This document shows positions 936 through 55,847 of a DNA stretch of 64,000 bases, one piece after another (positions within the stretch are counted from its first letter, which is position 1; the number at the start of each line of letters is the position of its first letter). Both the position numbers and the translations under genes were made by a program. The notes below the pieces were generated by a model. That model did no database searches. It was not told where the DNA came from and worked only from the letters and a program-made list of their open reading frames with translations. Origin of the DNA: Ectocarpus siliculosus (Eukaryota; Sar; Phaeophyceae; Ectocarpales; Ectocarpaceae). Where the stretch lies: the NCBI GenBank assembly GCA_000310025.1, contig FN648527.1:22533-86532 (forward strand), in the 5' to 3' direction.

Positions 936-1015
936 ACAATACTGCAGTAGGCAAGAGACACATTGTGCCGCGTTTTATTTTTTTTGCGGCGTAATTTGGC
1001 GGAGGAAGAGAAGAG

Positions 1016-9227: not shown

Positions 9228-9236
9228 AATGTAAAT

Positions 9237-9990: not shown

Positions 9991-10337
9991 TTTCAGGCGT
10001 CGTTCGGGGTTGGGTGAGCGATCTTCGTTGGGTATTTCGACGAGCTGAAGGTGTTCGTCGATTTGGAGTTTTTTGTACGTTCCTCGAGGGAGTGTTACTC
10101 TCGCTGGGGGTGTGGATTGTGACGTGCAGTATGTGATCGTGTTTGGCGATTGTGAGATGCGGCTGCTGAACGAGTTACCCAATGAATTGGCGTCAGCCGA
10201 TATCGATGATTGTCAGACATGGGGTGACATCTTTACTCTATTGATAGTTGGCGAAAGCCAGTTCCAGGTGGCAACAATGTGCCTTGAATTTCTTGAGACG
10301 TTTACTTTTTTTTGAAATGGAAACACGCGTCTTACTT

Positions 10338-15796: not shown

Positions 15797-15883
15797 CGCT
15801 GGCGGATGACACGTCGTCTACGAGATTCGCGGTCGAGCTTAGTTTAGGAGTGTCGCTTTGCGGCGATCGAGAGCGGGATCAAG

Positions 15884-24665: not shown

Positions 24666-26440
24666 TCATGAAATACATGTCTTCCGATGGATGCCTAGTA
24701 TATATATATGCGAAAAACAACCCAACGATGAGCAGCAGCCTTAACTGGTGACCACGTCATTTTTTGTTGTCGATGCGACACGGTTAATTGACTCCGATGC
24801 ATGGGGAAGATATGCGACAGACAGTCGTCGAGTGGTAGAAAGATACAACTATTAATTTTTATCGTAGCGCGTCAGTACATTAGGTACCTTTATCGCTACA
24901 CAAGTATATTTCCCGCTCTTCCTATACCATATACTTTACACACAACAAGCACCATGGAAATTAACCTACATTATCATTTAGCATTCCACTATTATTATGA
25001 TCGATCCATTTCCAGACGGTGTGTGTCAGCATATGATTCCCCATGTATGGTTGAACGATAACAGCGTCGCGTCGATGTTGTTTTTGCATGATTGAGGAGA
25101 GTACCCATCAGCAGCATGGCCATATCTGCCAGATGTAGCATAGCTCTCCCAGCGAATCACAGTCACATACCAAAGATTTCTGTAATGGTGGGTGAGGTAC
25201 GTACTTGAAAGACTGCTGCTGTAGCTGTACATCAGCTGCGGCCAGGGTGAGTGAAACGGCTGCTGCATGACGATTTCAGATAGGTACAGCGGAGAATTGC
25301 ATGCCTACAACGTGTGCGGAGATTTGATAAACACCAGCACAACCTTGCCAACCCTCGCACCGCATAGTGTCAGGTGCATCAAAACCAGCACCCTGTAAAT
25401 TGGTTAGGAACACACTCCAACCCACCAGAAAATAGGGAAAACGTAGCACTGCCTGCCAAGGACATAAACATTGGGTTGGAGACGTGTCCACGCTCGGTAT
25501 GCGGAGATAAGGCGGAAAAGGACGGGGTAAAAAAAGATTTGTACGAAATCTACGAACCGCTGTGGTAGAGCATCAATCAAGAGGTGATGACAACCAACTG
25601 GCATAACGGCGCGGGTATAGAGCAGATTGCCTACAGGAACCCGCAGCCATATGGATGGATGAAGCCTCTGCCGGTTGTACCAGGTGAAGAGCATGTGTGT
25701 ATGGCGCACTGGCCCCGAAAAAACGTTGTGTCCAGAGCGCAATATGCGGTGCATTAGCATTTTGTGAGGAAAGTGCGTGTACAGCAGGCCATGTCATCTG
25801 GTGTGGTCCCCATCAGCACACATGTCATCGGATACGATACCTTGTTGCCATCCTCAGCAGCAAACAGCTGTTATACCTCCCTCCGTCCAGGACAAGCACT
25901 GGTAGCCATGGTGCGTGCATGAGAGATACGATCTCGTGTTGTGCGCAGGACTCAAGCATCCCAGCAGCACAGCAAAGTAAAGCACGACAATTTTCTGACG
26001 TACACCCGTGAGCATTTTTACACTGGAATAAAAGGTGGTGCCAGCTCTAAAAAAAAAATCCATCATCTTGATTTTAGAATGGGAGTCAAAAAAGATTTTT
26101 GTTTCGTGCATGAATTTGGTTGTACATTCGTGTGTCCGCTGTGTTACGTTCTGAGGGATCATAATCCCCCCCCCCACCGGGAGCGATACCATGCACAGGG
26201 TGCAACTCACCAGTGTCTTCGATACCCCTATGAGGGGCCCATGTCATCGAAAACTAGGTCTGTTTAAGTCATGTATCCGAGGTGGTAGTCTACACGATTG
26301 TGAGCGAATCCAACCTCTCTAAAAGAGATCGTCAGTTGAAGCAAGCAGCAACTGAGCCAAAAGTAAACGCCCCTGCGTGTAAACAAAACTAAAGTTATCT
26401 CTACGTCCTCTACCATGTCACAGTGGTTATAACGCTATTA
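24666..26440. other. Unassigned region with orphan ORFs
   Basis: About 1.8 kb. Minus-strand ORFs at 25404-25760 (118 residues) and 25276-25491 (71 residues, ending with a Cys-rich MRCEGWQGCAGVYQ) overlap and resemble no family I know. AT-rich stretches occur around 24680-25010. I see no promoter or RNA gene I could defend. Confidence 0.35.
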
Positions 26441-27419
26441 TATTATATATACAAGGGCTCCGGACTTCGGGCGCAGAGGCGCCCTCGTCCTCAGTAGTAG
26501 GCTTAAAGGGAAGGTGTGAAGCCTGTGCACTGCATACCAAGGGCATGAAGCCGCAGGGTGACCGAATGAACGGTGTGAAGATGTTCGCGTTGTATTCGAG
26601 AAATGTGCCGTTCCCGGTGTAACATGAAGCCAAAAGAGTCGCGTGTACGTGATTTTTTGTCTAGCTTCGCCCGGTGCGGACGAAAAGGAGATGTATGCTA
26701 CGGTCGCCTTCCTATTCTTGCGCCGGTAAGAACGTAGTAACACTCTCAGCCAACGTTCTCTAAGTGGCTTTGCTGTGGCCAATATCCTGCCCAAAGGGGC
26801 CAAAGAAAGAACGAACACTGCATGCAACTGTTCGACGGTATTGCCGGTAGTTGATTGTACTGGTGTGTTACCGCCTAACTCTCATATTCAAACTCCTTCA
26901 GTGTGGCGGCTTTCTCTAATATCCCCCTCTAATGTTCTCGAGCTATTATTCTAACTTTTTCGGTGTCGTCCCGCTCGAATGGTCATATTCAAACTTCTCC
27001 AGTCTAATGTCGCGCCGTTCTCTAATGTCCCCCTCTAATGACGCCGATATGCGGTATCCCTCACAATGTGAAAGGAGCCGAACACCTACAACATTCAGAC
27101 AACGTAAGAACAAACACCGCACGCAGTGGTTTGACGGCGTTGCCGCTAGTTGACGGTGAAAGAGTTGACGCCTCCCGCCTCGGGTCATCGTTGCCCCTTA
27201 CGACCCTGGTGGTTATTGCCGATTACCACTGCGGAAGGTATGGTTTCGTTTGCAGCCTTGTACGCAGGTCTCGAGCTTCTTAATGTTGAAGCGTGACGGT
27301 GATGGCCGTGATGATGTCGGTGATGGTGCAGGCGGGAGGGTGCCTGCGCTGGCGGCAGAATGGAATTATTGGGGAGATGGATGTAAGAGCGTGTACGTGT
27401 CATAACCGTATAATGTAAA

Positions 27420-28160
27420 TTTAGAGCAGAAGAAAGAGGTTGTTGGGGAGGAGGTAATGTGGAGGCATTAATTAAGTGGATGTTTATCTGAGCATCAAAA
27501 ATTCGTTTAGCTGCGATGATTTCTTCGACACGGAATAGTTCTCATAATGTTGTTGGAGGTCGAATATGCCGTGGTAAGCACGTCCATGCAAGGTGAGCAT
27601 TGAAGGCGCTGGCGGTTCAGTCCATGTCTTTTTTTTAATACCGCCTGCGCCTAATGCAGTAAATCCGAAAAGCCCGTTGTATCGCGATATCACACCGTTT
27701 CATGGAATAATTGGTGGAAGTTAGTCAGAGGTTAATGAATTTAGTAGTTTCAAACAGCGCCATAAGATGGTGGGGGATAGATTGGAGAGGATGGATACAC
27801 GACTTGCCTTTGTTACAACAGTTTAACCCCTTTTCTTCTTTCCAAAGTTGAGCATTGCAGTGAGAACATGTGATATTTTGTGGATCATCCAAATCCGTGT
27901 GTTTTAGCTCAAAAGGTGCCGAGGGGAAGTCGAATGTTTGCGAGTCAATGTCTTGCACTCCAAGGCAGATTTGGTTATTGGCATCACCGCGATGGCTGTC
28001 TAGACTGGGTGCCGGTAACCTTGGTGCACGATTCCTCATTTGGCTAAAATGTTGACGTATCATATCGAGTTCAGGGTCTGAGTCGTGTGGTGTGTTATTG
28101 TTTGCATTGCGACGTCTACATTCCGCTACGATTTCAGCTTGCGCGTTATCCGGACAGGTT
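27420..28160 (-). pseudogene. Helitron-like Rep N-terminal region (H2 copy)
   Basis: Same content as the H1 version: RRRNANNN, MRNRAPRLPAPSLDSHRGD, a Cys pair CSHCNAQLWKEE, NCCNKGK, then the RYNGLFGFTALGAGG and LTLHGRAYHGIFDLQQH segments. The part 27725-28063 is open, and 27484-27693 is open in another frame, so there is at least one frame break. HUH nuclease and helicase are absent. Confidence 0.7.
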
Positions 28161-28519
28161 TGTGGTGTTCGAGGTTCAGGCGTCGTTCGGGGTTGGGTGA
28201 GCGATCTTCGTTGGGTATTTCGACGAGCTGAAGGTGTTCGTCGATTTGGAGTTGTTTGTACGTTCCTCGAGGGAGTGTTACTCTCGCTGGGGGTGTGGAT
28301 TGTGACGTGCAGTATGTGATCGTGTTTGGCGATTGTGAGATGCGGCTGCTGAACGAGTTACCCAACGAATTGGCGTCAGCCGACATCGATGATTGTCAGA
28401 CATGGGGTGACATCTTTACTCTGTTGATAGTTGGCGAAAGCCAGTCACAGGTGGCAACAATCTACCTAGAATTTTTTGAGACGTTTACTTTTTTCTGAAA
28501 TGGAAACACGCGTCTTACT

Positions 28520-29695
28520 TTAGAGGTCGGCGTGGGTAATTCCCAGGTCGCGGTGCTCGTCGGTCTTGTTGAGGATCTCGTTGATGGTCTGGTCCCACAG
28601 GCGGGGGGGCGCACTGGTAGTGCAGCGGCGGGGAGTCTCAATCCTTGATGATCAGGTCGTCCTCGACGATCTCGCCCGTGCACCCGTCGGCCAGGTCTTC
28701 CTCGTTAGTCGCTGCGTCGGGACACCCTTGCAGTGGATATCGGATGGGTGACAGGGAAAAATATATGGAAGAAAATGCACATGGTTTTACATTATAAAAA
28801 AATGATATTTTTATTTATGACGTCGACGGTTGAACTCGGCGCACTGACAGGGGAAAATATAAGGAACATATGTCACATGGTCTCCCCATACTAAAAAATG
28901 CTATTGTTTTATGACGTCCACCGGTGAACACGGTGTACTTTTGTGACATATGGGTAACTAATTTACAGCAACAGTCGGATGCATCCGCGCACCCATACCT
29001 AGGTAACTACGCACGCACACGACTGGTCACTACACAATCACGTTCCGATGTAAACGGGTGTACACACACATGATTTACCCCGATAAGGCTGGCGGGGGCG
29101 ACGGTGACGTGCATGAACTTCTTGCCGCCGAAGACTTGGCACCAGCGCAAAGACGCCACACCGCGTGGATAATATTCCACTCTGACAATAAAAGCAAGCA
29201 AAAAGGGCAATGTTGTGGAGAGATTTAGCGGTTGCGGTTGCGATGCAGTTTCATGCCAGGCCTTCATGCAACACCTGAACAACATTCGGGCACATATCAG
29301 GCGGAATTACTTGATGTAATTAAAGAGAAAAATTTCTTTTACCTTTGTAGCCGCGGCTGTTGTTGATCTGGTCGGTTGGGATCCCGAGCGAAGGAGTACC
29401 TCCCATCGGGGCGAGGCAAAGCTGGCACGGGTTGGGGTACGTTGTCGACGGGGTGAAGGATGGTGCAGGATATGCTACAACTGTCCGCGTCGCGGTTGTT
29501 GGTACGGTTGCAAGGGGCAAATTTGCCTTTACCGTCGCGCTTGTTTATGAGCTTGAGGTGACCGCCGTCGCAGTCGGGCCCGGGGCAAGGCCAGTTGGGG
29601 TCGCCCTGTTGTACCGGGCGGCGGTACACTCCACTACGACTCGCTGACCCGGTGGACTTACGCTTTGCTGGGGAGCTACGGGAGAGGGCGTTCAT
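28520..29695 (-). pseudogene. Spliced Cys-rich accessory gene (H2 copy)
   Basis: The three-exon layout is conserved with H3. Exon 1 starts at the ATG at 29693-29695; exon 3 ends with TAA at 28520-28522. Within exon 3, in the frame of the last 38 codons, a TGA lies at 28638-28640. The same TGA is present at the equivalent place in H1 and H3. So either the gene stops there or the amplifying source copy was already damaged. Confidence 0.6.
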
Positions 29696-29772
29696 GTTAT
29701 GTTGCAGCTGAAGGTTGACGCGGGAATGAGAGGAGAGGATGTCGAAAGTGAGAGTGACCGCGGGATGTGCAC

Positions 29773-30215
29773 NNNNNNNNNNNNNNNNNNNNNNNNNNNN
29801 NNNNNNNNNNNNNNNNNNNNNNNNNNNNNNNNNNNNNNNNNNNNNNNNNNNNNNNNNNNNNNNNNNNNNNNNNNNNNNNNNNNNNNNNNNNNNNNNNNNN
29901 NNNNNNNNNNNNNNNNNNNNNNNNNNNNNNNNNNNNNNNNNNNNNNNNNNNNNNNNNNNNNNNNNNNNNNNNNNNNNNNNNNNNNNNNNNNNNNNNNNNN
30001 NNNNNNNNNNNNNNNNNNNNNNNNNNNNNNNNNNNNNNNNNNNNNNNNNNNNNNNNNNNNNNNNNNNNNNNNNNNNNNNNNNNNNNNNNNNNNNNNNNNN
30101 NNNNNNNNNNNNNNNNNNNNNNNNNNNNNNNNNNNNNNNNNNNNNNNNNNNNNNNNNNNNNNNNNNNNNNNNNNNNNNNNNNNNNNNNNNNNNNNNNNNN
30201 NNNNNNNNNNNNNNN
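29773..30215. other. Assembly gap (443 Ns)
   Basis: Unknown bases at the centre of the inverted repeat. The open frames spanning it are artefacts. Confidence 0.99.
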
Positions 30216-30276: not shown

Positions 30277-31314
30277 ATGAACGCCCTCACCCGTAGCTCC
30301 CCAGCAAAGCGTAAGTCCACCCAGTCAGCGAGTCGTAGTGGAGTGTACCGCTGCCCTGTACAACAGGGCGACCCCAACTGGCCTTGCCCCGGGCCCGACT
30401 GCGACGGCGGTCACCTCAAGCTCATAAACAAGCGCGACGGTAAAGGCAAGTTTGCCCCTTGCGACCGTACCAACAACCGCGACGCGGACAATTGTAGCGT
30501 ATCCTGCACCATCCTCACCCTGTCGACAACGTACCCCAACCCGTGCCAGCCCTGCCTCGCCCCGATGGGAGGTACTCCTTCGCTCGGGATCCCAACCGAC
30601 CAGGTCAACAGCCGCGGCTACAGAGGTAAAAGAAAGTTCTTTCTTTGATTGTATCAAGCAGTTTCCGCCTGATGTGTGCCTGAATGTTGTTCAGGTGCTG
30701 CATGAAGGCCTGGCATGAAACTGCATCGCAACCGCAACCGCTAAATCTCTCCACAACAATGCCCTTTTTGCTTGCTGTTATTGTCAGAGTGGAATATTAT
30801 CCACGCGGTGTGGCGTCTTTGCGCTGGTGCCAAGTCTGCGGACGGCAAGAAGTTCATGCACGTCACCGTCGCCCCCGCCAGCCTTATCGGGGTAAATCAT
30901 GTGTACACCCGTTTACATCGGTCGACGTCATAAAAAAATTAGCATTTTTTAGTATGGGGAGACCATGTGATATATTTTCCCCTGTCAGTGCACCGAGTTC
31001 AACCGTCGATGTCATAAATAAAAATATCATTTTTTATAATGTAAAACCATGTGAATTTTTTTCCTAATATTTTTCCCTGTCACCCATCCGATATCCACTG
31101 CAGAGAAAGGTGTCCCGACGCAGCGACTAACGAGGAAGACCTGGCCGACGGGTGCACGGGCGAGATCGTCGAGGACGACCTGATAAGCAAAGGATTGAGA
31201 CTCCCCGCCGCTGCACTACGAGTGCGCCCGCCGCCTGTGGGACCAGACCATCAACGAGATCCTCAACAAGACCGACGAGCACCGTGACCTGGGAACTACC
31301 CACGCCGACCTCTA
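30277..31314 (+). pseudogene. Spliced Cys-rich accessory gene of Helitron-like family (H3)
   Basis: Exon 1 is 30277-30625, starting MNALTRSSPAKRKS. It contains a Cys-rich core (CPVQQ, CPGPDC, APCDRT, CSVSC, CQPC) and ends in phase 1 at a G/GTAAAAG donor. Exon 2 is 30788-30891, after a TTGTCAG acceptor; it encodes WNIIHAVWRLCAGAK and KKFMHVTVAPASLIG and ends at a GTAAAT donor. Exon 3 begins near 31110 (CPDAATNEEDL) and runs to TAA at 31312-31314. The frame is kept across the first junction, which supports real splicing. The paired cysteines suggest a zinc-binding protein of about 220 residues; no known family is recognised. A one-base insertion near 31190 and a TGA in the last frame make this copy unlikely to be intact. 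Confidence 0.6.
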
Positions 31315-31689
31315 AAGTAAGACGCGTGTTTCCATTTCAGAAAAAAGTAAACGTCTCAAGAAATTCAAGGTAGATTGTTGCCACCTGCAACTGGCTTTCG
31401 CCAACTATCAACAGAGTAAAGATGTCACCCCATGTCTGACAATCATCGATGTCGGCTGACGCCAATTCATTGGGTAACTCGTTCAGCAGCCGCATCTCAC
31501 AATCGCCAAACACGATCACATACTGCACGTCACAATCCACACCCCCAGCGAGAGTAACACTCCCTCGAGGAACGTACAAACAACTCCAAATCGACGAACA
31601 CCTTCAGCTCGTCGAAATACCCAACGAAGATCGCTCACCCAACCCCGAACGACGCCTGAAACTCGAACACCACAAACCTGTCCGGATAA

Positions 31690-32340
31690 CGTGCAAGCTG
31701 AAATCTTAGCGGAATGTAGGCGTCGCAATGCAAACAATAACACACCACACGACTCAGACCCTGAACTCGATATGATACGTCAACATTTTAGCCAAATGAG
31801 GAATCGTGCACCAAGGTTACCGGCACCCAGTGATGCGAATAACCAAATCTGCCTTGGAGTGCAAGACATTGACTCGCAATCATTCGACTTCCCCTCGGCA
31901 CCTTTTGAGCTAAAACACACGGATTTGGATGATCCACAAAATATCACATGTTCTCACTGCAATGCTCAACTTTGGAAAGAAGAAAAGGGATTAAATTGTT
32001 GTAACAAAGGCAAGTTCGTGTATCCATCCTCTCAAATCTATCCCCCACCATCTTATGGCGCTGTTTGAAACTACTAAATTCATTAACTTCCACCAATTAT
32101 TCCATGAAACGGTGTGATATCACGATACAACGGGCTTTTCGGATTTGCTGGATTAGGCGCAGGCTGTATTAAAAAAAAGACATGGACTGAACCGCCAGCC
32201 TCGTCAATGCTCACCTTGCATGGACGTGCTTACCACGGCATATTCGACCTCCAACAACATTATGAGAACTATTCCGTGTCGAAGAAATCATCGCAGCTCA
32301 ACGAATTTTTGATGCTCAGATAAACATCCACTTTATTTAT
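31690..32340 (+). pseudogene. Helitron-like Rep N-terminal region (H3 copy)
   Basis: Open from about 31691 to 32068 with AECRRRNANNN, MRNRAPRLPAP, FELKHTDLDDPQNITC, CSHCNAQLWKEE and NCCNKGK, then another frame to 32323 with RYNGLFGFAGLGAG and LTLHGRAYHGIFDLQQH. About 18 bp present in H1, H2 and H4 (the SLDSHRG codons) are missing here. The catalytic domains of Helitron Rep are absent. Confidence 0.7.
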
Positions 32341-33379
32341 TAATGCCTCCACATTATTACCTCCTCCCCAACAACCTCTTTCTTCTGCTCTAAATTTACA
32401 TTATACGGTTATGACACGTACACGCTCTTACATCCATCTCCCCAATAATTCCATTCTGCCGCCAGCGCAGGCACCCTACCGCCTGCACCATCACCGACAT
32501 CATCACGGCCATCACCGTCACGCTTCAACAGCTCGAGACCTGCGTACAAGGCTGCAAACGAAACCATACCTTCCGCAGTGGTAATCGGCAATAACCACCA
32601 GGCAGGGCCGTAAGGGGCAACGATGACCCGAGGCGGGAGGCGTCAACTCTTTCACCGTCAACTAGCGGCAACGCAGTCAAACCACTGCTTGCGGTGTTTG
32701 TTCTTACTTTGTCTGAATGTTGTAGGTGTTCCGCTCCTTTCACATTGTGAGGGATACCGCATATCGGCGTCATTAGAGGGGGACATTAGAGAATGGCGCG
32801 ACATTAGACTGAAGAAGTTAGAATATGACCATCCGAGCGGGACGACACCGAAAAGGTAATAATAATAGCTCGAGAACATTAGAGGGGGATATTAGAGAAA
32901 GGCGCGACACTGAAGAAGTTTGAATATGAGAGATAGGCGGTAACACACCAGTACAATCAACTACCGGCAATACCGTCGAACAGTTGCAGTGTTCGTTCTT
33001 TCTTTGGCCCCTTTGGGATGGATATTGGCCACAGCAAAGCCACTTAGAGAACGTTGGCTGAGAGTGTTACTACGTTCTTACCGACGCAAGAATAGGGAGG
33101 CGACCGTAGCTTACATCTCCTTTTCGTCCGCACCGGGCGAAGCTAGACGAAAAATCACGTACACGCGACTCTTTTGGCTTCATGTTACACCGGGAACGGC
33201 ACATTTCTCGAATACAACGCGAACATCTTCACACCGTTCATTCGGTCACCCTACGGCTTCATGCCCTTGGTATGCTCTGCACAGCCTTCACACCTTCTCT
33301 TTAAGCCTACTACTGAGGACGAGGGCGCCTCTGCGCCCGAAGTCCGGAGTCCTTGTATATATAACATGACACATGATAA

Positions 33380-33916
33380 ACACTATATTGGCGAAATGGA
33401 GAGGGAAGGTTGCGATGGAGTGGCATATATTTCGTATTCGGAACACAACTAAAACAAACATTTGATTCCTGGAGAGGTGTACATCTGTTGCTTCTGAACC
33501 AACTGCCCCAAATGCACTTTCGAGCAGCCGAGGCATTACGTAGTGGCGTCAGAAGAGGTGCAGAGCAATGTAGACCGTGCAGACACGGTGGGGGTAGGGG
33601 TCGGGAGGTTGGGAGGCATACATGCGTGTGTGCATGTGTGTACAAGTGCACTTGTGCACAACAAGTGCACACACACGCATGTGCGGAGGTCAGTCTGAAA
33701 AATCCGCAGAACGTGGTATGCATATCGTATGAATATGCACCAACGGGCCAACGGGCAACGTCGAGACAGACACGCGGGCTCAGCCAACAGCGACACTGCA
33801 CAGTGGATGGCCGGTATTGCGTAAGATCATCAGGACACTGTGGTGTGGTATGTGGCTCTCTGGGCGTAGCGAGTCATAGGTGTGTGTAGGCGTAGAGATG
33901 GGCGAGTTCTAGGTGC
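33380..33916 (+). repeat. Left TIR of long-TIR element
   Basis: Inverted match of 39566-40069, preceded by the TGATAA target duplication. It includes a GTGTGTGC/GTGCAC-rich stretch near 33620-33680. Confidence 0.85.
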
Positions 33917-35082: not shown

Positions 35083-35222
35083 TTGAATAGTGCCAACTGC
35101 CGGTATAGTGCCGGCAAAATCTCTCCACACAGAAAGCGCCCTCAATAGTGCCAAACGGCACTATTGAGGGCGGGCCTGGTATAGTGCCGGTTGGGCACCA
35201 CGTCAGCCCGCAATAGTGCCGG
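35074..35222 (+). repeat. Left subterminal TAGTGCC repeats
   Basis: TAGTGCC occurs at 35074, 35088, 35106, 35146, 35182 and 35214. One occurrence is part of a palindrome, CTCAATAGTGCC-AAAC-GGCACTATTGAG, near 35141-35168. Such subterminal arrays are typical transposase-binding regions. Confidence 0.8.
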
Positions 35223-35312
35223 TTCACACACGCACGCACACACACCACCACACTCCCAAAATACAGACACCGTGCTGCTGCAGTCCAACACAGCTCTACG
35301 CAGAGGCGCACC

Positions 35313-38209
35313 ATGCCGTGTGCGGAAGGTGAACTGTGCCTTCAACAGAACAGAACGCCAAAGGCCCCTCATGGCCACGTCTGCAAGGGAGGATGTGGCG
35401 GGCGGCTCCATGGCACTTGCGGCAGCGTGGAGGGTGACTTCGAAACATCCCGCATCTGCAGTTCTTGCGTCGCTGCTAAGACTGGGAAGCGCAAAGCGAC
35501 CGCAGCTGGGGTTGATGCTGGGGCGGGACCATCTAAACGTCCGACAGAGAAAGGGGGGGGGAAGAAGGCTTCTCGCGCGCGGCTGAGCAACGCTGACAAG
35601 GTTGAGGTCCTCAAGCTGCTGGATGCCAAGATTTCTCATGAGCAGATAGCAGATCGCTTTAAGTGCTCGGAACGGCTGGTCCGCAAGGTGAAAGCTGAAC
35701 GGAAGGAAGTGGAGGCTAAGGCAGCTGCAGGCGACGGAAGCCAGAAAACCGCACGCAGAGGAGACTTTCCGGAGGTAGGTAGAGTACACGACATGCCCGG
35801 CAATTTCCTCTCGAACGTTGTTTTTCCCCGCCATTTTTCAAAAATGCCCTCATGTCGCCGATTTCTACTGCTGTACCTTTTTTTTTTTTGCCCTTCCTTG
35901 TTTCTTTGCCTTTCCCTTTTCGTCTTTTCGTATGTATCATATGGTGTTTTTTTTTTTCATTTCACCTCCTTTTTTTCTTTCTCTTTGCCTTTTTTTGTTA
36001 TGTCTTTGGCCTTTGAGGTCCTCGATGTCCACACTCATAGACCTTCCGATTATTTGTCCTTGAAATTGAAAGAGCACTGTTGTGTACATATTCGCACCCG
36101 CTTTTTTTTCAAAACAAACAAGCAGATGTAAGCAGATGTAAGCAGATGTAGCGTGTACGAGCGTCTCCTCGCAACTTTCCCTTTCCCCTCCCGCAATTTT
36201 TTCTTTCCGGGTGTAGTGGCACTTAAAAAACATCAGCTTTGTTTACGGTGTACCGCGGCGTCGTCCCTCGTATCTGCGCCGCGCAGTGTAGATGCTTACG
36301 TTTGAAACTAATCGTTGGTCGTTTGAACCTCTGCATTGTATACTCTTTTTCGCCGGCAGGTGGATGAGATAGTTATTGATCTGCTCGATAAAGCCCGGAA
36401 GGCCAAGATGCCCGTCACACGGGACGTACTTCGAAGCTTCGGCCGTTCCACCGTGGCAACCCTGCTCGCTGAGCCCGCTACTTCTGCAGCAGTGAGGGCG
36501 AGGGTCGAGGACTTCAAGGCCGGTGAAAAGTGGGCCAAGAACTTCGTGAAGCGCAACAAGGTGCTGAGTGCGAGACTTCATGGCGAGGCTGGTAGTGTCG
36601 ACCCAGCGGCCATCGAGAAGGGCATGGAGGAAGTCAGGAGCCTTTGCGCGAAGTACCCAGCTAGGTTCATCTTCAACGTGGACGAGACAGGCATCCAGTG
36701 GAAGCTTATGCCCAGGCGCACGTATCTTTCCTCCTCGGAGGACCGCAAGAAGGCGCGGGGCTCCAAGAGCATGTACTTCAAGGATCGGATGTCTGCCATC
36801 ATGTGCAGCAACGCCGACGGCACTGCAAAGGTGGACATGGCCATCATCGGGAGGTCGAAGGTGCCTCGCTGCTTCACGGACGCGCCTTCACCTCTGAAGT
36901 ACTTCTCGCAGGCCAACGCGTGGTCTGACTCCGCGACGTTCCTCAAGTGGTGGCTTGAAGTCTTCCTCCCGTTCATTCGGCGCTTCACTCACGAAAAGGT
37001 GCTGCTCCTGATGGACGGCTGCTCCTCTCACGGCGATCTCGTTGATGATCGTGGGCAAGTTGCCATCAAGGTCTATCCTCCGAACTGCACCAGCCTGCAC
37101 CACCCTGCACCAGCCCATGGACATGGGGATCATCGCGAAGACGAAGGTCCTCTACAGGAAGGAGCTGCTCGACGTGAAGGCATCCACAATGTTGGTCGCT
37201 GAGACCCTTCGCGCCCAGGCCAAAGCCAGTAAGATGAAGGCCGGGACGATGGGGCTGGCGCAGGGGCACCACCCTCACCTACGGGACGCCGCTGAACTTC
37301 TTCAGAAAGCATGGGGTAGCGTCACTCCCCAGGACATCGCCAGGTCAGGTTTGAACATGTTCTGTTGCTATGTAGATGCTTCAACTCGGGCGGTGGTGCT
37401 AGCACAATAGCTTTGGTGGCACGTTTCGTGGCAGAGGTGGTACGGATTTTTTTTGAGAAAGTTTCCTGCAGGGGCATCCCTCGTTTGCAATAAAAATTTC
37501 CTCTTTTTTTGCATGCGGATGAGTCAACTTCTGCCGCTGGGTCCGTCTAATATCTGCGTTGCACTCAAAAACGGATGCGGTTCGTATTCTCGGCAACCCC
37601 GCGACCAGGTGCTTTGTCAAAGCCGACACCCTTCCGCAGGAGATGGCGGCTGAGCTCACCAACCTCCACGGGAAAACCCAGGCCCGCATCCACGAGCCTG
37701 CGTTGAGGTCCCTCACGAAGAGTGTCCACTCGTTGAGCACGAGCGTGCACGACGCGCAGCAGCAGGGGTCTCGCATCGAAGACGAGGACCTGAGTGAAAT
37801 GTTCGCAGAACTCAACGTCTCACCCGGAGAGCCTGCCCCGGAGGAGGCGGTGGACTTAGTTCAGGCGTGGGCTACCATCGAGGATGACCATGACGTGGTG
37901 GAGGCTTTTCGACAGGATGCAGCGGACGAAATGACGGCACAGCTAGCGGGAACGCGCCTATCTACCTACCGCGAGGAGGTATCCGAAGATGAGGCGGACA
38001 GTGATCATGAGGACACGGGGGGCGGCCGCCGCGCCCCACCGGCTTACGGTGAACTGTCTTCTCACTTCGGCGTCCTGAAGGTGGCCGCGCGGGAGAGTGG
38101 AAACGGGGACGCTGCGTTCCACCTATCGAAAGCGAAGATGGCGACGATCGCGGCGCATGCCGCTAAGGGCGTGCGCCAGACAGACATGAGAGAGTTTGTT
38201 GATGAGTGA
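35313..38209 (+). pseudogene. Pogo/Jerky-type transposase, three exons
   Basis: Exon 1, 35313-35774: a Cys/His cluster (CKGGCGGRLHGTC ... CSSC), then a helix-turn-helix DNA-binding domain (RARLSNADKVEVLKLLD, HEQIADRFKCSERLVRKV). Exon 2, 36360-37343: a second DNA-binding part (CENP-B/Tc5-type), then the DDE nuclease core with first Asp in NVDETGIQW, second in LLLMDGCSSH, third in LHQPMDMGII. Exon 3, 37609-38209: an acidic C-terminal tail ending MREFVDE. Intron 1 (35775-36359) has GAG/GTAGGT and GCAG/G; intron 2 (37344-37608) has CAG/GTCAGG and CCAG/G; both joins keep frame. Near 37094-37113 a 10-bp unit CCTGCACCA(C/G) is doubled just before the third Asp, shifting the frame. Otherwise length and motif order are those of an active transposase. 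Confidence 0.88.
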
Positions 38210-46957: not shown

Positions 46958-49900
46958 CTAACGGGGCGGCCGCACGGTGCCCATACACGGTTCATACTTA
47001 CCTGCCCAGCTAAAATCTGGGTCTCCCCCGCTGCGTAGACGGCGTGGTACTCCTGCACATTCTTCCACTGCCAGTACACCCCCCCAGGCCGCCAGACGAC
47101 AGTCGGAGGGCTCTCGGCAGTGGTAGTAGGCCGTAGTCCAGGGATAAGCGGAGAGGGATGGTCGAGCGGCAACGCCGACGCCCGTATCCATTATGCGCTT
47201 CGTGAGTTCCTCCCAATCTCCGTCCGGGTACTCCACACGCCAGTAGGGGTCGCAGTAGTCGAAGACGTTGGCCTTGAAAACCTTGAGCTGTCCGTCGGTG
47301 TCGGCAGATTCTTGACCAACTGGCGTCCCCAGAGGAAAGAGCTGTAACGCTTGCTCCCTGGACGCTACTTCGCGTTCGCCCCGGGTAGGCGGTCCGGCGG
47401 GTCGTGGGGTGGCGTCCTCGCCGTGGTAGTCCTCGTATAGCGCGTGGAAGACGTCCAGCTGGAGTGGCGAGAAGCTGTCGCCGGCCTCATCCTCAGTTAT
47501 CCAAGGTGAGAGGGCACCATCTTGGTAACGGCCTTGGTACTCCCATGTCCACGTCGTCGTGTTACCGGTACCGTATACCACCCGTCGGTCCACGAGCGTG
47601 TACAGCGGCACGGCGACGACGGAGGTGTCGGCCAGGCCAAGGTCGGACGACCACACGAGATGCGCAACCTCGTCCTCGAACGGCAGCCGGAGGTCCTGCG
47701 GTCGCACGTGGTAGGGCTTGAGGTCGGGCGCTGCCACTTTGCGTCGGCGGATCCGGCGGCCGTTGAGTTGAACTGCGAAGCTTAGGCGGTCGTGGATGAC
47801 GTTGGTGACCTTCCACGGACCGGTGTAGTGGTCGTGCGTGAGCTTCGGGTGGTGACTGTCTCGGTGTAGCGTGTTGGCCGGTTCCTTGACGAGGACGGCG
47901 TCTCCGATGGCTGCTTTGGCTCCTGGTGACTCCCGTGCTACCCGGGCATTGTGGCGATCCCGCTGACGGTTCGGGGCCTCGTGGCGGCAGGTGAGGATCT
48001 CCCGCGTCATGCGTTGTTGATCTGCGACAGTCCGCTCGAGTCCGTGGCCGAAGGAGCTGTCGTCCAGGGCTTGGGAGACCACGTCGATGTGGCTCCGTGG
48101 TTCCCGACCGAATAGGACTCGGTAGGGGGAGGCTCCGCCGGGCAAGGCCGCGTCGGGTGTCACCCGGTGGATCCAGGTAGCCACGGGCACGAAGTCGTCC
48201 CACCGCTTGGGCCACGCGGTGCACAGATGGGACAGGGCCTCGTGCAGCCACCCCCCCAACCTCTCGACCGCTCCTTGTGCGCGGGGGTGGTTGGTGGGAC
48301 CGTAGTTCAGCGGTACTTTCAGCCATCGGCAGAGGTGCCGCATCACCTCCGCGGTGAACTCGCCCCCCGGGTCGCAGCGGATCGAGAGGGGCAGGCCGAA
48401 TACGAGCATGAGTCCTAGGAGCTTCCGGCTCACTCCAATAGCTTCCTTGGACTGGAGCGGGAAGGCTGTCAGGAATTTGGAAGCCCGGTCAACCACCACG
48501 AGTAGGTAGCGGTTGCCCTTGTCGGACGTGACCTTGAGGTCTTGGATATCCATCTCCAGCACCTCCCACGGTTGGAGGAGCCGTGCCGGCATCATGAGCA
48601 GCTGCTTGCTCCAGGCCCGCTTCCGCCGGCGGCACTTGCAGGACAGGACATAAGCCCGGACGTCCTTCTTGAGGGTCGGCCAGTGGTATTTGCGCTCAAT
48701 TAAGAGGGTAGTGCGCGCCGTTCCCGGGTGGCCGTACGTGCCGTGGACCAGCGCCAGCACGGCGTGAACCAGCTGTTTGGGAATGGCGATCGCATACGCG
48801 CGACCGCGCGGGGCGTGCCACAACAGATGATCGTCGGCCAGGACGTAATTGTTGTCCTCTCCACGTCCCGCTTCCAAATCGGTCCGGAGGCATCGAAGTG
48901 TTGGGTCTCGCCGCTGCGCGTCCACGAGCTTGGCGGTGTCGCGCAGGGTGTCCTCCATTTGCGCTAGCTTGGCAGACAGACCCCGTCGTAGGTCCGGCGT
49001 GTCCAGCGGGATGTTGCCGTCTCGGGGGTTCTCCCGCAGCGTCGCCGGTGTATGGAGTGGCATCGACGGCGGCGGCGGTGCGGTCGTTGGCGCGGGGCCA
49101 GCCACAGCGTCAGTGGGTGGCACCCGCGGCACCGGGGGCGGTGCCGGTTCTTGGACGGGTGCCGCAGCTGCTCCGGGGTGCGCGGGTTGCTTTGCGCGTG
49201 GCTGTGCGGCGGGCGGGGTCGGCGGTGGCCGGCGCCTGGGCTCCTTCTCAGGGTCGCGGTTGCGATGTTTGCTAGTGTTCGCCATCTCCCGTGGTGGTGG
49301 TGTGGTGCTGGGTGTTGGAGTTGGTCGTGTTGCTCGGCGGGCCATACCCCTCGTGACTCGGGGAATCACCACGAAGCGTGCCTGGTCCCCTGCTGCAGTG
49401 TCCAGGGTGGCGATATGGTCAGTGGAGTCTGTCCACAGGTTGGCCAGGGCGATCGCCAGCTCATCTTCCATGGTACCACGATGGTCGGCGTTGCGGTCGA
49501 CGATGCCGTGGATGCCCAGCGCGCTGAAGGCTTCCCGTAGCATGGGGGGCAGGGTGAACTCTTCCAGCGCCCTTGCGGCGTCAATTTGTCGCACGCTCGG
49601 TGGGACGGCGAAGTCCGTCTGGCACGTAGTGAGCTGCACAAACTCTTCCCGTGACAGGTCTCCCGCCTTGGCGAAGGGCCCGTCATCGGCTGGGTGAGGA
49701 TGGTACTCCGTTGGTCGGCGGCCCATGATGATCGCATGCGTGATGGTGACCGTCGGTTGCGCGAAACTGAAGACTCCCTTGTCGCCGGTCGGACGGTTCA
49801 GGAAGAAGTGGCCCTGGCGTCCCAGCAGCGCACCCACGGTCGGCGTCGTCGTCGCTCTCTGCTGTACGTGTCGCTTCCACAGGGCCAGCTTCGCCGCGGA

Positions 49901-52900
49901 GGTCTCGGGCGGGATGTCGGGGCGCCGCTTGATGGCCACTATGAATGCTCGGTACTTCCCAGTTGGAACGCCAACATCCGTAGCATACAGGGTGGCGTCC
50001 TCTACGGTACACCGGGCTTGCTCCAAGCGCGGTCGCAGGTCGTCGCGCCAGGCTGGGGTCCTTGCGAACCCCGCTGGGCACTCCATGAGCAGGAGTTGCG
50101 CTCGCGAAGCGGTGAAGGTCTCGGTGATTTCCGTTGCCTGGCGTGCGGCCGTCTCCCCGTGGCTGTGAGCGTGGTATCGGCGACATGCGTTACCGATGAG
50201 GACCTCCGGTCGCGCCTCCGCTAGTGTGTGCATGCATTGCTTGCCTGAGAGGGGCGAGCATACCAGGTGGATTCCTCGGCTCCATTTGTTAACACGGGCG
50301 TACTCCAACGTGATCCAGTCCGGTTCGACCGCGGCCTGGACGTGCAGGAGGTCCTGGAGCGCCAGCAGTGCTCCCCCAGCTCCACAGCCGAGGATGACAG
50401 CCCGTGGCAGTCTCGGAGCCAGGGCGGAACGTGTGTCCTCGTAGTTCCGACGTCGCTGAAGATCCCCATGCTCCAGCGGCTCCGGCGTGAGTTGTAGGGC
50501 GTAGAAGGCGGCCAGGCTCATCTCCGGCGTTCGGGAGGGCTCGGTGGGGCCTAGTGCGGTAAGGCGGACGCCATCCAGTACAGGCTCGTCATCCCGATCC
50601 AGGTGGATGTCTTCCGCCGCCTCCAGTGGAGTAGGGTCGCCGTCTCGTTCGTCAGCGGGTGGTGCCAGGGTCCTGAGCGGTACACCATCCAGTACGGGTC
50701 CTGTGGGGCCTTGGTTTTCCACCGGCTGCGTAGTGTCGTCGGGGAACGCTGTGTTGATTGCCGGCTCCGGCGGTCCTTTGCGGCGCAGTCGGGATAGGGC
50801 GTCCGGGGCCGTATGGTCTTTGCCTTTGCGCCACTGGAGGTCGATGTCGAACTGCATCAACCGTAGAGACCACCGGTGCATCTTTGCAGATAGGTTTTGG
50901 CTGGTGAACAGCCACGTCAGAGCTGCACAGTCAGTGATCAGTGTGAATCTGCGGTGTTGCAGGTAAGTTCTGAACTGCTCGATGCCATAAAGCACTCCGA
51001 GGACCTCGCGGTCGTCGGGGGAGAGCTTCTCCTCGCTCCGGGTGAACCGATGGCTGGCGTACCCCAGAGGTGCGTCGCGCCCCTCGACGGCTTGGGTGAG
51101 AACCGCTCCTGCTGCTAGCTCGCTGGCGTCCGTGTGCAGCGAGAAGGGGAGCCCCCAGTCTGGTGTCGCTAGCACCGGGTGGGAGATGAGGGCGCCGATG
51201 ACCGCTCGGAAGGCTTCGGTCTGCGGGGTGCCCCACGGAACACGGCGGTTTCGTGCTCGGCGTGAGCTGAACGCCGCATCCCGCAGCAAGTCCGTGATCG
51301 GCGCCGTGAGTGCACTAAAGTCCGGGACAAAGCTCCGTAGGAAGCCGGCGAGTCCCAGAAATGCTCTTACCTCTCCCACGGTAGTGGGCATCTCCAGCTC
51401 CCGTACCGCCTTGACCTTGGAGGGCGAGGGTCGTACACCCGCCCGGCCGACCATGACGCCGAGGAACTCCACCTCTGCCATGCAGAAGACACACTTGCGG
51501 AAGTGCACTGAGTACCCTGATCCGTGTAAGAGGCCAAAGACCCTTTCGATGAGAGCGAGGTGTTCGTCCAGGGTGGCGTTGTGCACGAGTATGTCGTCTA
51601 GCCATCGTTCTACGCCTCCCTCGGTCTCTACCTCCCGGAGGGTGTCGCCTAGGTGGGCGGAGAAGACCGCGGGGATGGTCGTAAGTCCAAAACCACACCT
51701 TGTAAACTCGTAGAGTCGACCCCGCGCGTCCCTAAAGGCTGTCTTGTGGCTGTCGACCTCGCGTATGCTGAGTTGATGATACGCTGATGGCAAGTCGAGG
51801 GAGTGTGAAGAACTTACTGCCCTTGATGCGGTGGTGCATGGTCGCCAGCGTGCCGATGCCTCCGCTATCTTTCTTCGTGACGGCGTTGAGCGGTCGGTAG
51901 TCGACCGTCACGCGGTTGCTTCCGTCTTTCTTCTTCACGATCGAGGTTCGGCTACACCAGGCGGAAGTCAACGGGCGTACCACACCCGTTGTCAACCAGA
52001 GGTCGACCTGCTTGTTGACGATGTCGGCTTGAATGGGGTTGTACTGTTGCTGTTTGCAAGCAACCGGCGTGACGCTTTCATCCACCAGAGGGATCGGCAC
52101 CTCGCGTCCCGGCAGGGCATCTACGATCTTGGGATTGGAGGGGAACAGTCCGTTCTTGTTTGCCTCGCCGATGATGTCGAGGAGCCGGGCGCGTGACTTG
52201 GGGCCGAGCTGTCCAGTGTTCGCTTCGCGGATGCGTATGCCCTGCTCCGCGGGTGGGTCCGGTAGCGGCGTGGCATCCGCGGGCGTTGGTTCCGGCCTCA
52301 GCGGTGTCGGCGACGGTGACGGCATTGGTTCCTTGAGCAGCACCATTTTCTCTATGTCGTCACAGTTGGTGGCGTAGGCCATGGCGACCTGCACTTCCGC
52401 CCCGATGGACTTGGGGGTGGTTGTGCGGTTGGCCAACTTGAGCTTCGGAAGAGTGCCGGGCCTCCACCACTGCACTCCTCGGGCCACGCTGATACCTGGT
52501 TCGTTCTGAGGGTCGAACCTCCTGAGGGGGAAGACGACCAGCAGCTGGGCCGTGTGGGGCTGGGTACCCGGCAACAGGGCCTTCACCTCGATGCTGACCC
52601 TCCCCGGGATGGTTTGTTGCTCCGCCAGAGTCATTGGCCAACGTAGGGAGCCACCGTCCTCCCATGCAGTCGAGCCCAGGTCCAGCGCTTCCGTGGTCAT
52701 CAGCTGTGGGAGCGTTGTCGGCTGCTCGTTCCCTCTCGTCTCCTGCGCTTCCGTGCGCCACTCCATGGAGAAGAATGTGTCCTGCGTGGGTCCATTGTAC
52801 CGGTCGGCAGCGACGGGGTGTGATAGGATCGTCCCAGTTGCTGCGCACCGCCTTCGTCCGGTCCTTGCGCCAAGTCTAGCGGCCTGCCACCCCGGTGTCC

Positions 52901-53465
52901 GACACCAATTGTCCTCATCGTCCGACTGGAGGGCGTGGGCACGATCCTTCCAAGGTCGAGGGTTCGGCGGTGGTTTCGGCGGTAGCAGCGGCACGCTGCC
53001 GGCCTCTGGTGCTGGCCTGAAAGAGCCCTCGCCGGCGAAGTCGATGACGCTGTTGTAGTGACGCATGAAGGCGGCGCCTAGGATCAGCCCGAACGGAAGT
53101 CCTTCCACTACGCGCAGTCGTGCTCGGAAAACGCGGTCCACCGGCGGAAAGACCAGCGGCAGGACCTCCGTGCCGACGATTGACATCGGCGCAACTCCAC
53201 TATTGGAGGGGTTGGCTGCCCGAAGTAGTCCTCGCCCCCTCTCAGAAACGATGCGTTTGCCGCGGTACTCGGTACGCTCGACAGCACGGATGAACCTGTC
53301 GCTGCAGAAATTGCCCCCGCCAGCGCCACTATCCAACAGTACGGTGGTGCGGTAGCCCAACCGGTGGCGCACCTTGTTCCACAGGTAGGCGGTGACCCAA
53401 GTCTGGTGGGAGCCGCGTGCAGGCCCCGACATCGCGGCTGCGGGGGCGGCAGTAGCGGCGGCCAA
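46958..53465 (-). CDS. Gypsy Pol region (PR-RT-RH-MTase-like-IN)
   Basis: Protease has VLLDSGAGGG (about 53340-53315) and FGLILGAAF (about 53085). RT carries an RVTVDYRPLNAV segment near 51900 and the active-site-like WLDDIL near 51600. RNase H has SLHTDASELAAGA and ITDCAALTWLF (about 51150-50900), ending in DALSRL. Next come a Pro/Asp-rich linker, the methyltransferase-like domain (about 50420-49480) and a long Pro-rich basic linker (49400-49000). Integrase has HGTYGHPGT and a C-x-C pair (zinc), then core residues in LEMDIQDL, IRCDPGGEF and GAVERLG (about 48560-48250). The C-terminal 250 residues include a DPYWRVEYPDGDWEELT segment near 47230. Pol copies RNA to DNA and inserts it in the nucleus. 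The region is long and largely open. Confidence 0.85.
49480..50420 (-). other. C5-cytosine methyltransferase-like domain within Pol
   Basis: About 310 residues between RNase H and integrase. AVILGCGAGGALLAL matches the SAM-binding motif I region (F-x-G-x-G-G) of C5 methyltransferases; VEPDWITLEYARVNKW matches motif II. LLLMECPAGF lies at the motif VI position, and YATDVGVPTGKYRAFIVAIK is a close match to motif VIII (DYGVPQ-R-R-FIVG). Late segments TVGALLG, TVTITHAI, LTTCQTDFAVPPSV and LPPMLREAFSALGIHGIV follow the order of the target-recognition and motif IX-X end. Motif order and spacing support the family; whether the domain was catalytic cannot be judged by reading. It is continuous with RT and integrase frames, so it is part of the polyprotein. 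Confidence 0.78.
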
Positions 53466-53555: not shown

Positions 53556-55847
53556 TCAGGCGCATCCACCGGCGCCTCCGGGCGCAGGGCAGGCAGCGGT
53601 GAGGCTGGACCATGTCGAGAGTGAGTCCAGAACGTAGAGGAGGTTCTCGTCGTAGTCTCCGTAAGCTGCCAGGTCCGGTTGTGGCGTTGGGGAGTCCTTC
53701 GGGTAGGCCTTGAAAGGAATGGGCGTCTCCGTGTGCAGGTAAGGGCAGTGGTGGGTCTCGACCATGCGCCGGCAACGTCGTCCATGAGCGTGGTTGAAGC
53801 AGACTTTATTCCTGAAGATGAAGGCTTGGATGACTTTGGGGTCTGCGTCCGGCGAGGGCGCGTCCGGGGGGAGCTGGGGCGCCTGGGTGGGTTGCTCCTG
53901 CTTTGCGGAAGGCACCGGCGGGTCGGGTGAGCGGCGGGGCCGTCTGGCGTCTCTCGACGGGGTGTCTGATGTAGGTATGGGGCGAGAGTCCCGGTCACGT
54001 TTCCGGAATTCACTTCCGAACGTCGCCGATGCATAGCGGCTGGGTCTCCGCTCGTGGTCGCGGCGTCCCGAACCCCGTCCCGTGAAGCGGTTGACCTTGT
54101 CACGTTGAGTGGCTCGTGCCCCGTCGAGGGCCGCCAAGTCGGGGTCATCCTCGTCCGACTCGGACGATGAATCCCCGCCTTCCATGGCGAAGGCGATACC
54201 TGACTGCCGTACCTGGCGGGAGAAAGTGTCCTCTCCGGGCGGTAGGCGCAGCGACTTCGTCTGAATGGCGGCCACATCCGTAGGTTGGGGCGCGTAGAAT
54301 TGCGAGTTGTCGCCCAGGGTGGTGACGAAGGCGCGGAAGCAGTCGTGGCAGATCTGCCCACGGAGACGCATCTGTGGGGAGCCAAGCGCGTGGGTGTCGA
54401 TAGGGTATTGCTCTCGCATGGTTTTGTTGTGGCCCATGACGCCGACGAGGTGGGCGATAAACGGAGTCTGGTCGGCTTGAGGGAAGCACATCGCGACGGC
54501 GCGGTTGAGTAGGTGGTGGAGATCTTCGGTGGTGAGTACCATCCAGTAGTAGGCCTCTTCCGAGAGGTACGGGCGATCCGGGAGCACAGCTGCGGCACGG
54601 GCGAGCTCGACGAGGCGGCTCAAGCCGGTCTCCCATGATTCGCCGTCCTTGAGGCGTATGCGATCCAGAGCCTGCCTCGCGTGGCGCCCGGAAAGACTCT
54701 GCCTGGCGATTTCGGAGACGAGCAGTCGGAGGGCATCCTTTGCGGTGAATTGTTCAAACTTGGTCCAGGACATGCCGCCATTGAGGTTGTGCACCTGTAT
54801 ATCATGGCCCCGGGTGATGGAAGACGTCACCGCCATGGTGGGTGGTAGCATGCCGTACAAAAGTCCCAAACGGAAGGTGGTGCACTCGTCCGGCCAGGCC
54901 TTCATGACGTTTGCAGCGCCCGCGGCGGCCGGTACGTCCTGCTCGAGTTTCATGACTCCCATGCCCGCGATCCTGAATGCGTCAGAAAGGCGATTGCAGA
55001 ACAGCGACGGGTCCTGCCTGTGGGTGAGCTCCATCGGTGGCGCGATGGGCGGTCCCTGAAAGATCGGCGTTCCGACGGCCTTGGGTGAGCCTCCCATCAT
55101 TCTGATGATATGGGAGGAGATGCTGTCACGATGCTTGTGGCTCTCCAGGCGGACAGGTAGGCCTAGGCCTGGGTTATCCAGGGTCGCAGGGGGCGTCGCG
55201 TACACGTGGTGAGGCGCAACGGCTCCGCCGTACGGCTGCGGTGGCGGCTGAGACGGCGCATGCCCATGGTGCAGTGGGCCATAGGCGTTGAGGGGCTGGT
55301 GTCCCGGGTAGTCGCCCTGCTGGCGCAGTCCAGGATAGGTGTGCGGGGTTCGACCCTGCACTGGCGGTAGTGGGTACTGCACCGGGCGCTGCGGCGGTTG
55401 GTGTTGCTGCTGCTGTAGATGCGGCGGTGGTGGATGAGCTCCCCCGTGTCCTCCAGGAGGCGGCGGGGGCGGCAGCAGGCCACCCCCAAGCCCTATCTGT
55501 TGCGATGGGGCCTGCGGCGGGGGAGGGGGCTGTTGAGGACCCGCAGGCCCGCCGTGCGGTGGCGGGGGGCCCGGCGGCATGGGGAGCTGCGGGGGCCCCA
55601 CGGGTCCGCCCAGTGGCATGGGGAGCTGCGGGGGGCCCGCGGATCCACCCTGCTGGGGCGGGGGGGGCGGGGGGGGCAGTGGCAGAGGGAACTGCGGCGG
55701 CCCCGCGGGCCCGCCCTGCTGCGGCGGGGGCGGCGGGGGGCCCGGCGGCGGAGGGGGCTGCGGTGGGCCTCCCCCGTGATGTCCAAGGGCGGGTAGGGCG
55801 ACCCCGGGGTTGGGAAGATGCTGTCCGGCGTGCTGCTGATGGTTCAT
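53556..55847 (-). CDS. Gypsy Gag with CCCH finger
   Basis: 763 codons from MNHQQHAGQH. The first 200 residues are repeats of Pro, Gly and Gln. Residues about 240-590 form the capsid-like helical domain (LTHRQDPSLFCNRLSDAF, RLGLLYGMLPPTMAV, SEEAYYWMVL, HNKTMREQYPIDTHALG). A basic, Arg/Ser-rich stretch leads to a zinc-finger pattern C-x8-C-x8-C-x3-H at about 681-705 instead of the usual CCHC knuckle. Gag binds element RNA and forms particles. The same Gag type is found as a fragment at 13635-15444. It looks open throughout. Confidence 0.83.
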   Translation of the reverse strand: MNHQQHAGQHLPNPGVALPALGHHGGGPPQPPPPPGPPPPPPQQGGPAGPPQFPLPLPPPPPPPQQGGSAGPPQLPMPLGGPVGPPQLPMPPGPPPPHGGPAGPQQPPPPPQAPSQQIGLGGGLLPPPPPPGGHGGAHPPPPHLQQQQHQPPQRPVQYPLPPVQGRTPHTYPGLRQQGDYPGHQPLNAYGPLHHGHAPSQPPPQPYGGAVAPHHVYATPPATLDNPGLGLPVRLESHKHRDSISSHIIRMMGGSPKAVGTPIFQGPPIAPPMELTHRQDPSLFCNRLSDAFRIAGMGVMKLEQDVPAAAGAANVMKAWPDECTTFRLGLLYGMLPPTMAVTSSITRGHDIQVHNLNGGMSWTKFEQFTAKDALRLLVSEIARQSLSGRHARQALDRIRLKDGESWETGLSRLVELARAAAVLPDRPYLSEEAYYWMVLTTEDLHHLLNRAVAMCFPQADQTPFIAHLVGVMGHNKTMREQYPIDTHALGSPQMRLRGQICHDCFRAFVTTLGDNSQFYAPQPTDVAAIQTKSLRLPPGEDTFSRQVRQSGIAFAMEGGDSSSESDEDDPDLAALDGARATQRDKVNRFTGRGSGRRDHERRPSRYASATFGSEFRKRDRDSRPIPTSDTPSRDARRPRRSPDPPVPSAKQEQPTQAPQLPPDAPSPDADPKVIQAFIFRNKVCFNHAHGRRCRRMVETHHCPYLHTETPIPFKAYPKDSPTPQPDLAAYGDYDENLLYVLDSLSTWSSLTAACPAPGGAGGCA

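Follow-up and report, generated by a model that had tools for sequence, protein, structure and literature searches.

Retroelements of dinoflagellates and of one charophyte are documented to have captured C5 DNA methyltransferases. Long interspersed nuclear element (LINE) and DIRS elements of Symbiodinium and a Gypsy Pol of Klebsormidium nitens carry DNA methyltransferases (DNMTs) (de Mendoza et al. 2018, PMC5890265). In the passages of that paper that deal with these elements, they are said to keep the key residues, yeast gained CG methylation from SymbioDIRS-Dnmt3 domains, and a CpG deamination footprint is given only for SymbioLINE-Dnmt elements. Stramenopiles, red algae, green algae, and charophytes are named as hosts of Ty3/Gypsy and DIRS elements encoding DAM or DCM in a passage of Morozov et al. 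2019 (PMC6338049). In Ectocarpus itself, which is described as being without cytosine methylation, the element Gypsy-10_Ec32 has a C-terminal Tudor domain and a homologue in Tribonema, according to a passage of PMC12477816. Here, we describe a Ty3/Gypsy-type retrotransposon in a 64,000-nucleotide stretch of the Ectocarpus siliculosus genome (contig FN648527.1, positions 22,533 to 86,532; hereafter the window). Between the ribonuclease H (RNase H) and integrase of its Pol lies a domain that, judged by its sequence, is very probably a highly diverged derivative of a C5 methyltransferase.

The initial annotation of the window had proposed such a domain and had named charophyte Gypsy and dinoflagellate Copia elements as precedents. 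The charophyte precedent holds; the dinoflagellate elements are of the LINE and DIRS types, and Copia is said to be without a DNMT in the part of PMC5890265 concerned.

A methyltransferase-like domain in Pol

The domain occupies Pol residues ~444 to 760, and its position in the interval from RNase H to integrase is as first proposed. All four motifs quoted in the initial annotation are present in the Pol translation, in the order given there: a motif I counterpart, ILGCGAGG (residues 467 to 474), a motif II-like AAVEPDW (residues 487 to 493), and the counterparts of motifs VI and VIII (Table 1). To this list we add a motif IV counterpart, IGNACRRY, which had not been included. Motif numbers and catalytic roles are those that we take over from M.HhaI.

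Support for the domain comes from two profile libraries, PADLOC (5027 models) and PHROGs (38880 families), and from shuffle controls. With the 200-residue catalytic half as the query, PADLOC returned six models at E values up to 10, headed by the type II methyltransferase PDLC03234 (E 0.0014), which aligns co-linearly over positions 11 to 183 of its 375. Ranks 2 to 5 are three DNA cytosine methylase models, DruM among them, and a second type II methyltransferase (E 0.009 to 0.025), and the last match is mad2 (E 0.072). Eight shuffled sequences, one reversed sequence, and Gag gave zero PADLOC matches, as did the integrase, the tail, the protease-reverse transcriptase (RT) open reading frame (ORF), a Copia-type ORF, and the C-terminal half of the domain; the RT/RNase H part matches an RT model. 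Among the PHROGs families, only phrog_363 (E 0.065) and phrog_116 (E 0.12), both named DNA methyltransferase, match a 433-residue construct at E values up to 1, and the same families match the 200-residue piece with E values of 0.023 and 0.13, respectively. Two C5 enzymes, L001 and L070, likewise have phrog_363 and phrog_116 as their top two families.

Purpose-built profiles gave a concordant picture. A profile of 51 C5 methyltransferases (50 from IMG/VR plus M.HhaI; hmmsearch --max) assigned 8.1 bits to Pol residues 401 to 800 (E 5.9e-5 for one target), while the best of 2000 shuffles reached 1.2 bits. When 233 pieces of the window's ORFs were scored, the top two (8.1 and 7.5 bits) were overlapping Pol pieces that contain motif VIII, and the next best had 2.6 bits. 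With a second profile, built from 93 viral C5 methyltransferases of IMG/VR, the domain scored 6.1 bits versus 2.6 for shuffles. In global mode, 1 of 1000 shuffles scored at or above the whole domain; the figure was 14 of 1000 for motifs I to VI without motif VIII and 0 of 1000 for the motif VIII region. A profile restricted to motifs I to VI had its best score at the domain, among 74 overlapping Pol pieces. A local hhalign comparison was co-linear over 278 columns (P 0.013). As for background levels, reversed copies of 427 ORFs scored at most 4.4 bits. Seven of 260 ORFs that had at most 25 bits in the 93-enzyme search score at least 8.1 bits; six of the seven overlap the methyltransferase match of their own locus in a frame other than its start, and the remaining one (L016) adjoins such a match. 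Because these high scorers overlap or adjoin methyltransferase loci, the 260 low-scoring ORFs were left out as a null set.

Several results weigh against a methyltransferase origin or restrict how far it extends. The significant PF00145 match that had been named as support did not materialize: no construct gave that or any other relevant Pfam match, and NCBIfam returned a single weak, unrelated match and no methyltransferase. The E values of the 433-residue construct are modest in both PADLOC (best 0.0059) and PHROGs (0.065), a family of unknown function, phrog_31056, ranks second for the 200-residue piece (E 0.089), and a phage tblastn search with the domain had zero matches at E values up to 10. 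Absolute global scores are negative (-2.1 for motifs I to VI and -11.4 for the whole domain), so that the evidence there lies only in the rank relative to shuffles; the local hhalign probability is only 3.3%, and the global mode of hhalign found no match. For the residues C-terminal to motif VIII, 734 of 1000 shuffles scored as high as or higher than the real sequence. The proposed extent of the domain is supported for the catalytic N-terminal half and not for the remainder. Searches with exact 8-residue words, which detect close relatives only, found none in viral contigs (queries: domain, Pol, RT, and integrase) or in genome contigs (queries: domain and RT); no second copy of the domain was found within the window or the collections searched, and the only relative of the element in the window is one of Gag. 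Pol itself runs for 1611 codons without a stop, with 22 to 69 stops in each of the other five frames of 46958 to 51793; since the integrase is read through the domain, this open frame is not proof of selection on the domain.

Structure models likewise call for restraint. Modeled alone, as the initial annotation had suggested, the domain did not fold (predicted local distance difference test [pLDDT] score, 32). When 15 enzyme rows were supplied in the alignment, AlphaFold2 (AF2) gave a pLDDT of at least 70 to 147 of the 186 N-terminal residues, in which strands and helices alternate, and left residues 187 to 332, the C-terminal half, under 50. Foldseek matched this alignment-aided model best to DNMT2 and then DNMT1 in the PDB (E 2.4e-9; TM score, 0.41), and the majority of the named top matches in BFVD are cytosine-specific methyltransferases. 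However, since the alignment held C5 enzymes, the model is not independent evidence and shows consistency only. The strand-helix order of the domain-alone model resembles that of the aided model from about the third strand; at a pLDDT of 32, we give this no weight. A PDB search with the alignment finds C5 enzymes and was discarded, since such enzymes make up 15 of the 16 rows of that alignment.

That the resemblance arose by chance, in an unrelated spacer or in another class I methyltransferase fold carrying such motifs, is very unlikely: it would account for the lack of a Pfam match, the modest family E values, a motif I (LGCGAGG) that is presumably of the general class I type, and a sole PDB phmmer match to a generic SAM methyltransferase (3e8s, E 0.47), but not for two libraries ranking DNA (C5) methyltransferases first, the absence of such matches among shuffles (PADLOC only), or the co-linear order and spacing of the motifs.

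Active site, CpG content, and possible roles

In an alignment of the domain with 15 C5 enzymes, its identity to each of them is 15 to 20%. The motif IV Cys, the motif VI Glu, and the second Arg of motif VIII are aligned, in altered surroundings: PCQ has become ACR, ENV has become ECP, and QxRxR has become TGKYR. The Cys of motif IV (PCQ or PCN in the enzymes) is thus flanked by A and R, and the Glu alone is kept of ENV. No motifs IX and X and no target recognition domain were recognized, either in the shuffle comparison for the part after motif VIII or with PADLOC. For the domain, the observed/expected CpG ratio is 1.04; Gag-Pol and the whole window both have 0.98, and across the window the ratio ranges from 0.92 to 1.08 in sixteen 4-kb steps. 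CpG is hence not depleted, in line with what one would predict for a genome that lacks strong CpG methylation. This fits the description of Ectocarpus in the relevant passage of PMC12477816.

The altered PCQ and ENV motifs and the CpG ratio suggest that the domain methylates CpG weakly or not at all, although the missing CpG footprint is weak evidence, because only SymbioLINE-Dnmt showed one among the elements described in PMC5890265. Together, these two observations lead us to favor a retained DNA-binding module over an active writer as the putative mechanism. Our best overall explanation, which we put forward tentatively and at somewhat less than even confidence, is that of a captured C5 methyltransferase domain acting mainly as a DNA-binding module, with catalysis weak, altered, or absent.

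In this scenario, the domain of a C5 cytosine-DNA methyltransferase would have entered the Pol of a Ty3/Gypsy-type retrotransposon, in the interval from RNase H to integrase, and would then have diverged to its present 15 to 20% identity. After maturation of the polyprotein, the domain may stay in the particle with RT/RNase H or integrase, where its methyltransferase-type fold could grip new cDNA or target DNA. Its main function would be that of a DNA-binding, perhaps SAM (S-adenosylmethionine)-binding, module, with methyl transfer being weak, altered, or lost. A Tudor-like stretch near the Pol C terminus may, in addition, steer integration to chromatin. The corresponding family, PF21743 (PTM_DIR17_Tudor), matches the 167-residue tail with an E value of 0.003 and 17.7 bits, below its curated cut-off of 27.2, and a longer tail piece with an E value of 0.015, again below the cut-off. 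It is not listed by Pfam for the whole Pol at E values up to 1, and the PDB sequence matches of the 167-residue tail include no Tudor domain.

Alternatively, the domain might be an active methyltransferase that methylates the cDNA of the element or host DNA, as proposed for the dinoflagellate and charophyte DNMT retrotransposons. The Cys, the Glu, and one Arg of motif VIII, with their presumed roles, align as this would require, and the yeast result for SymbioDIRS-Dnmt3 (PMC5890265) offers a precedent. Nevertheless, we regard activity as unlikely. The changes from PCQ to ACR and from ENV to ECP set the domain apart from the published elements, said in that paper to keep their key residues, the target recognition half is unrecognized, and CpG is undepleted in the element and the window, although a single copy of recent origin could lack depletion anyway.

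It is also conceivable that the captured methyltransferase lost its function and was kept as a passive remnant because Pol must stay in frame through to the integrase. Such a history would be consistent with the low identity, the altered catalytic motifs, the unrecognizable C-terminal half, and the broken frame of RT in the same copy. Free drift of this depth, however, would be expected to erase motifs I to VI and motif VIII, both of which exceed shuffles, and a useless insert of ~300 residues would presumably have been lost by deletion, which makes a remnant improbable.

Element layout and the rest of the window

The order RT, RNase H, and integrase (zinc-binding domain and core), as recognized by Pfam, is that of Ty3/Gypsy elements, and the best solved relative of Pol among PDB sequences is Ty3 Gag-Pol (7q5b, E 9.2e-57). 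The Pol ORF begins with the rest of RT and continues with RNase H, the methyltransferase-like domain, a Pro-rich linker, the integrase, and the C-terminal tail. RNase H is joined to the methyltransferase-like domain by a linker (Pol residues ~365 to 425; 50519 to 50701, minus strand) that contains two similar segments, VLDGVPLRTL and VLDGVRLTAL, which might be a repeat or protease sites.

RT is split across the protease-RT ORF and the Pol ORF, with a frame change at ~51735 to 51815. As the two frames differ, RT is broken in this copy; the change may be a mutation, an assembly error, or recoding. Upstream of RT, an LLDSGAGG motif is present without a Pfam protease match; we take it to be retropepsin-like, and the RT motifs are assigned on the same footing. 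No long terminal repeats (LTRs) turned up when the flanks, as far as they lie in the window, were searched for repeats and by gapped BLAST, and therefore the element is filed by its Pol as Ty3/Gypsy-type only. Truncation and a diverged or more distant LTR are possible reasons. The Gag ORF has no Pfam match.

Table 1. Positions in the window of the element's ORFs, domains, and motifs
Feature	Position	Strand	Basis
Gag ORF, 763 amino acids, Pro-rich N terminus	53556..55847	-	ORF list
CCCH-like zinc finger of Gag, CFNHAHGRRCRRMVETHHCPYLH	53733-53801	-	Label by eye
Protease-RT ORF: retropepsin-like LLDSGAGG and N-terminal part of RT	51732..53465	-	ORF list
LLDSGAGG, retropepsin-like DSG motif, in protease-RT ORF	53316-53339	-	ORF translation
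Pol ORF, 1611 amino acids	46958..51793	-	ORF list, Pfam
WLDD of RT, in Pol ORF	51584-51604	-	ORF translation
RNase H, Pol residues 187-315	50849..51235	-	PF17917 E 4.2e-27, PF17919 E 2.7e-23
Catalytic (SAM-binding) half of C5-methyltransferase-like domain, Pol residues 444-643	49865..50464	-	PADLOC, PHROGs, shuffle tests, AF2
Motif IV counterpart IGNACRRY, Pol residues 533-540	50174..50197	-	Alignment with 15 C5 enzymes
Motif VI counterpart LLMECPAG, Pol residues 568-575	50069..50092	-	Alignment with 15 C5 enzymes
Motif VIII counterpart VGVPTGKYRAFIV, Pol residues 607-619	49937..49975	-	Strongest single match
C-terminal half of domain (place of target recognition, motifs IX-X)	49432..49864	-	No statistical support
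LSREEFVQL, in C-terminal half	49631-49657	-	Motif IX resemblance by eye only
Integrase: H2C2 zinc-binding (Pol residues 1004-1058) and rve core (1074-1170)	48284..48784	-	PF17921 E 1.9e-13, PF00665 E 4.6e-8
Tudor-like stretch near Pol C terminus, FKANVFDYCDPYWRVEYPDGDWEELTKR	47195..47278	-	PF21743 PTM_DIR17_Tudor, weak

A diverged relative of Gag lies at 13755 to 14595 (minus strand) in three pieces of 28 to 43% identity and is without a matching Pol in the window; possibly, it belongs to a second, non-autonomous or truncated, member of the lineage. Copia-type Gag ORFs are found on the plus strand at 15848 to 19222 and 995 to 3115 (PF14223, the second just below the cut-off), and the former, which is very rich in Gln and Pro, also has a Pol_BBD match (PF22936). 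Transposase pieces in more than one ORF at 35217 to 37202 (plus strand) match DDE_1 (E 7.5e-18) and, below the cut-off, a Tc5-type DNA-binding domain (E 0.00054); we take them to be Tigger/pogo-like.

A repeat family with copies of ~1.5 to 2.5 kb and 91 to 94% identity occupies 9222 to 11581, 27406 to 29771, and 26422 to 28938 versus 30903 to 33384 (inverted), forming in part an inverted pair around a gap of N at 29773 to 30215. Two copies hold an ORF of ~210 amino acids with a Cys-rich C-terminal part (9545 to 10174 and 27725 to 28357) and no meaningful Pfam match. No Pfam match supported a Helitron-like interpretation of the copies at 9.5 and 27.7 kb, which was rejected.

Comparison with described retroelements

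Should one Pol indeed unite a methyltransferase-derived module, whether writer or DNA clamp, with a tail that reads chromatin, in a host whose lineage has no appreciable cytosine methylation and through an independent capture, a combination that we consider doubtful, the element would bring with it an epigenetic writer (or DNA clamp) and a reader of its own, independent of any methylation system of the host. An additional case of this kind, in which the catalytic motifs are altered and Pol may also hold a chromatin reader, would indicate that the capture of C5 methyltransferases by retroelements recurs and would show that the fold can outlast a change of the classical active site. It would also offer a clean background for asking what use the domain has for the element, provided that the host is without 5-methylcytosine.

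The closest described counterpart is KnitGypsy-Dnmt3, in which a C5 methyltransferase domain likewise lies, intronless, within a Gypsy-type Pol (PMC5890265). By the description in that paper, KnitGypsy-Dnmt3 is Dnmt3-related, keeps its key residues, is under purifying selection, and occurs in several copies with DIRS-like repeats. Compared with that description, the element in the window is far more diverged, has altered motifs IV and VI and no terminal repeats that we could find, and ends in a possibly Tudor-like tail. SymbioDIRS-Dnmt3 and SymbioLINE-Dnmt also encode a C5 methyltransferase, which in DIRS is fused in Pol; by the same source, however, they belong to the tyrosine recombinase or endonuclease classes, whereas the element described here is a Gypsy type with a DDE integrase (PMC5890265). 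Gypsy-10_Ec32, a Ty3/Gypsy Pol with a C-terminal Tudor domain, may resemble it, given the weak Tudor match here; the likeness is one of description, not of sequence, and the passage on Gypsy-10_Ec32 mentions no C5 methyltransferase domain (PMC12477816). The passage of Morozov et al. 2019 lumps adenine (DAM) and cytosine (DCM) enzymes and may cover cases like the present one (PMC6338049). Among the matches listed by our search of the open-licence literature, in the portions of text returned, no further Gypsy element with a C5 methyltransferase was found. Measured against these systems, the element in the window probably represents a further capture of a C5 methyltransferase, set apart by its divergence and perhaps by its reader tail.

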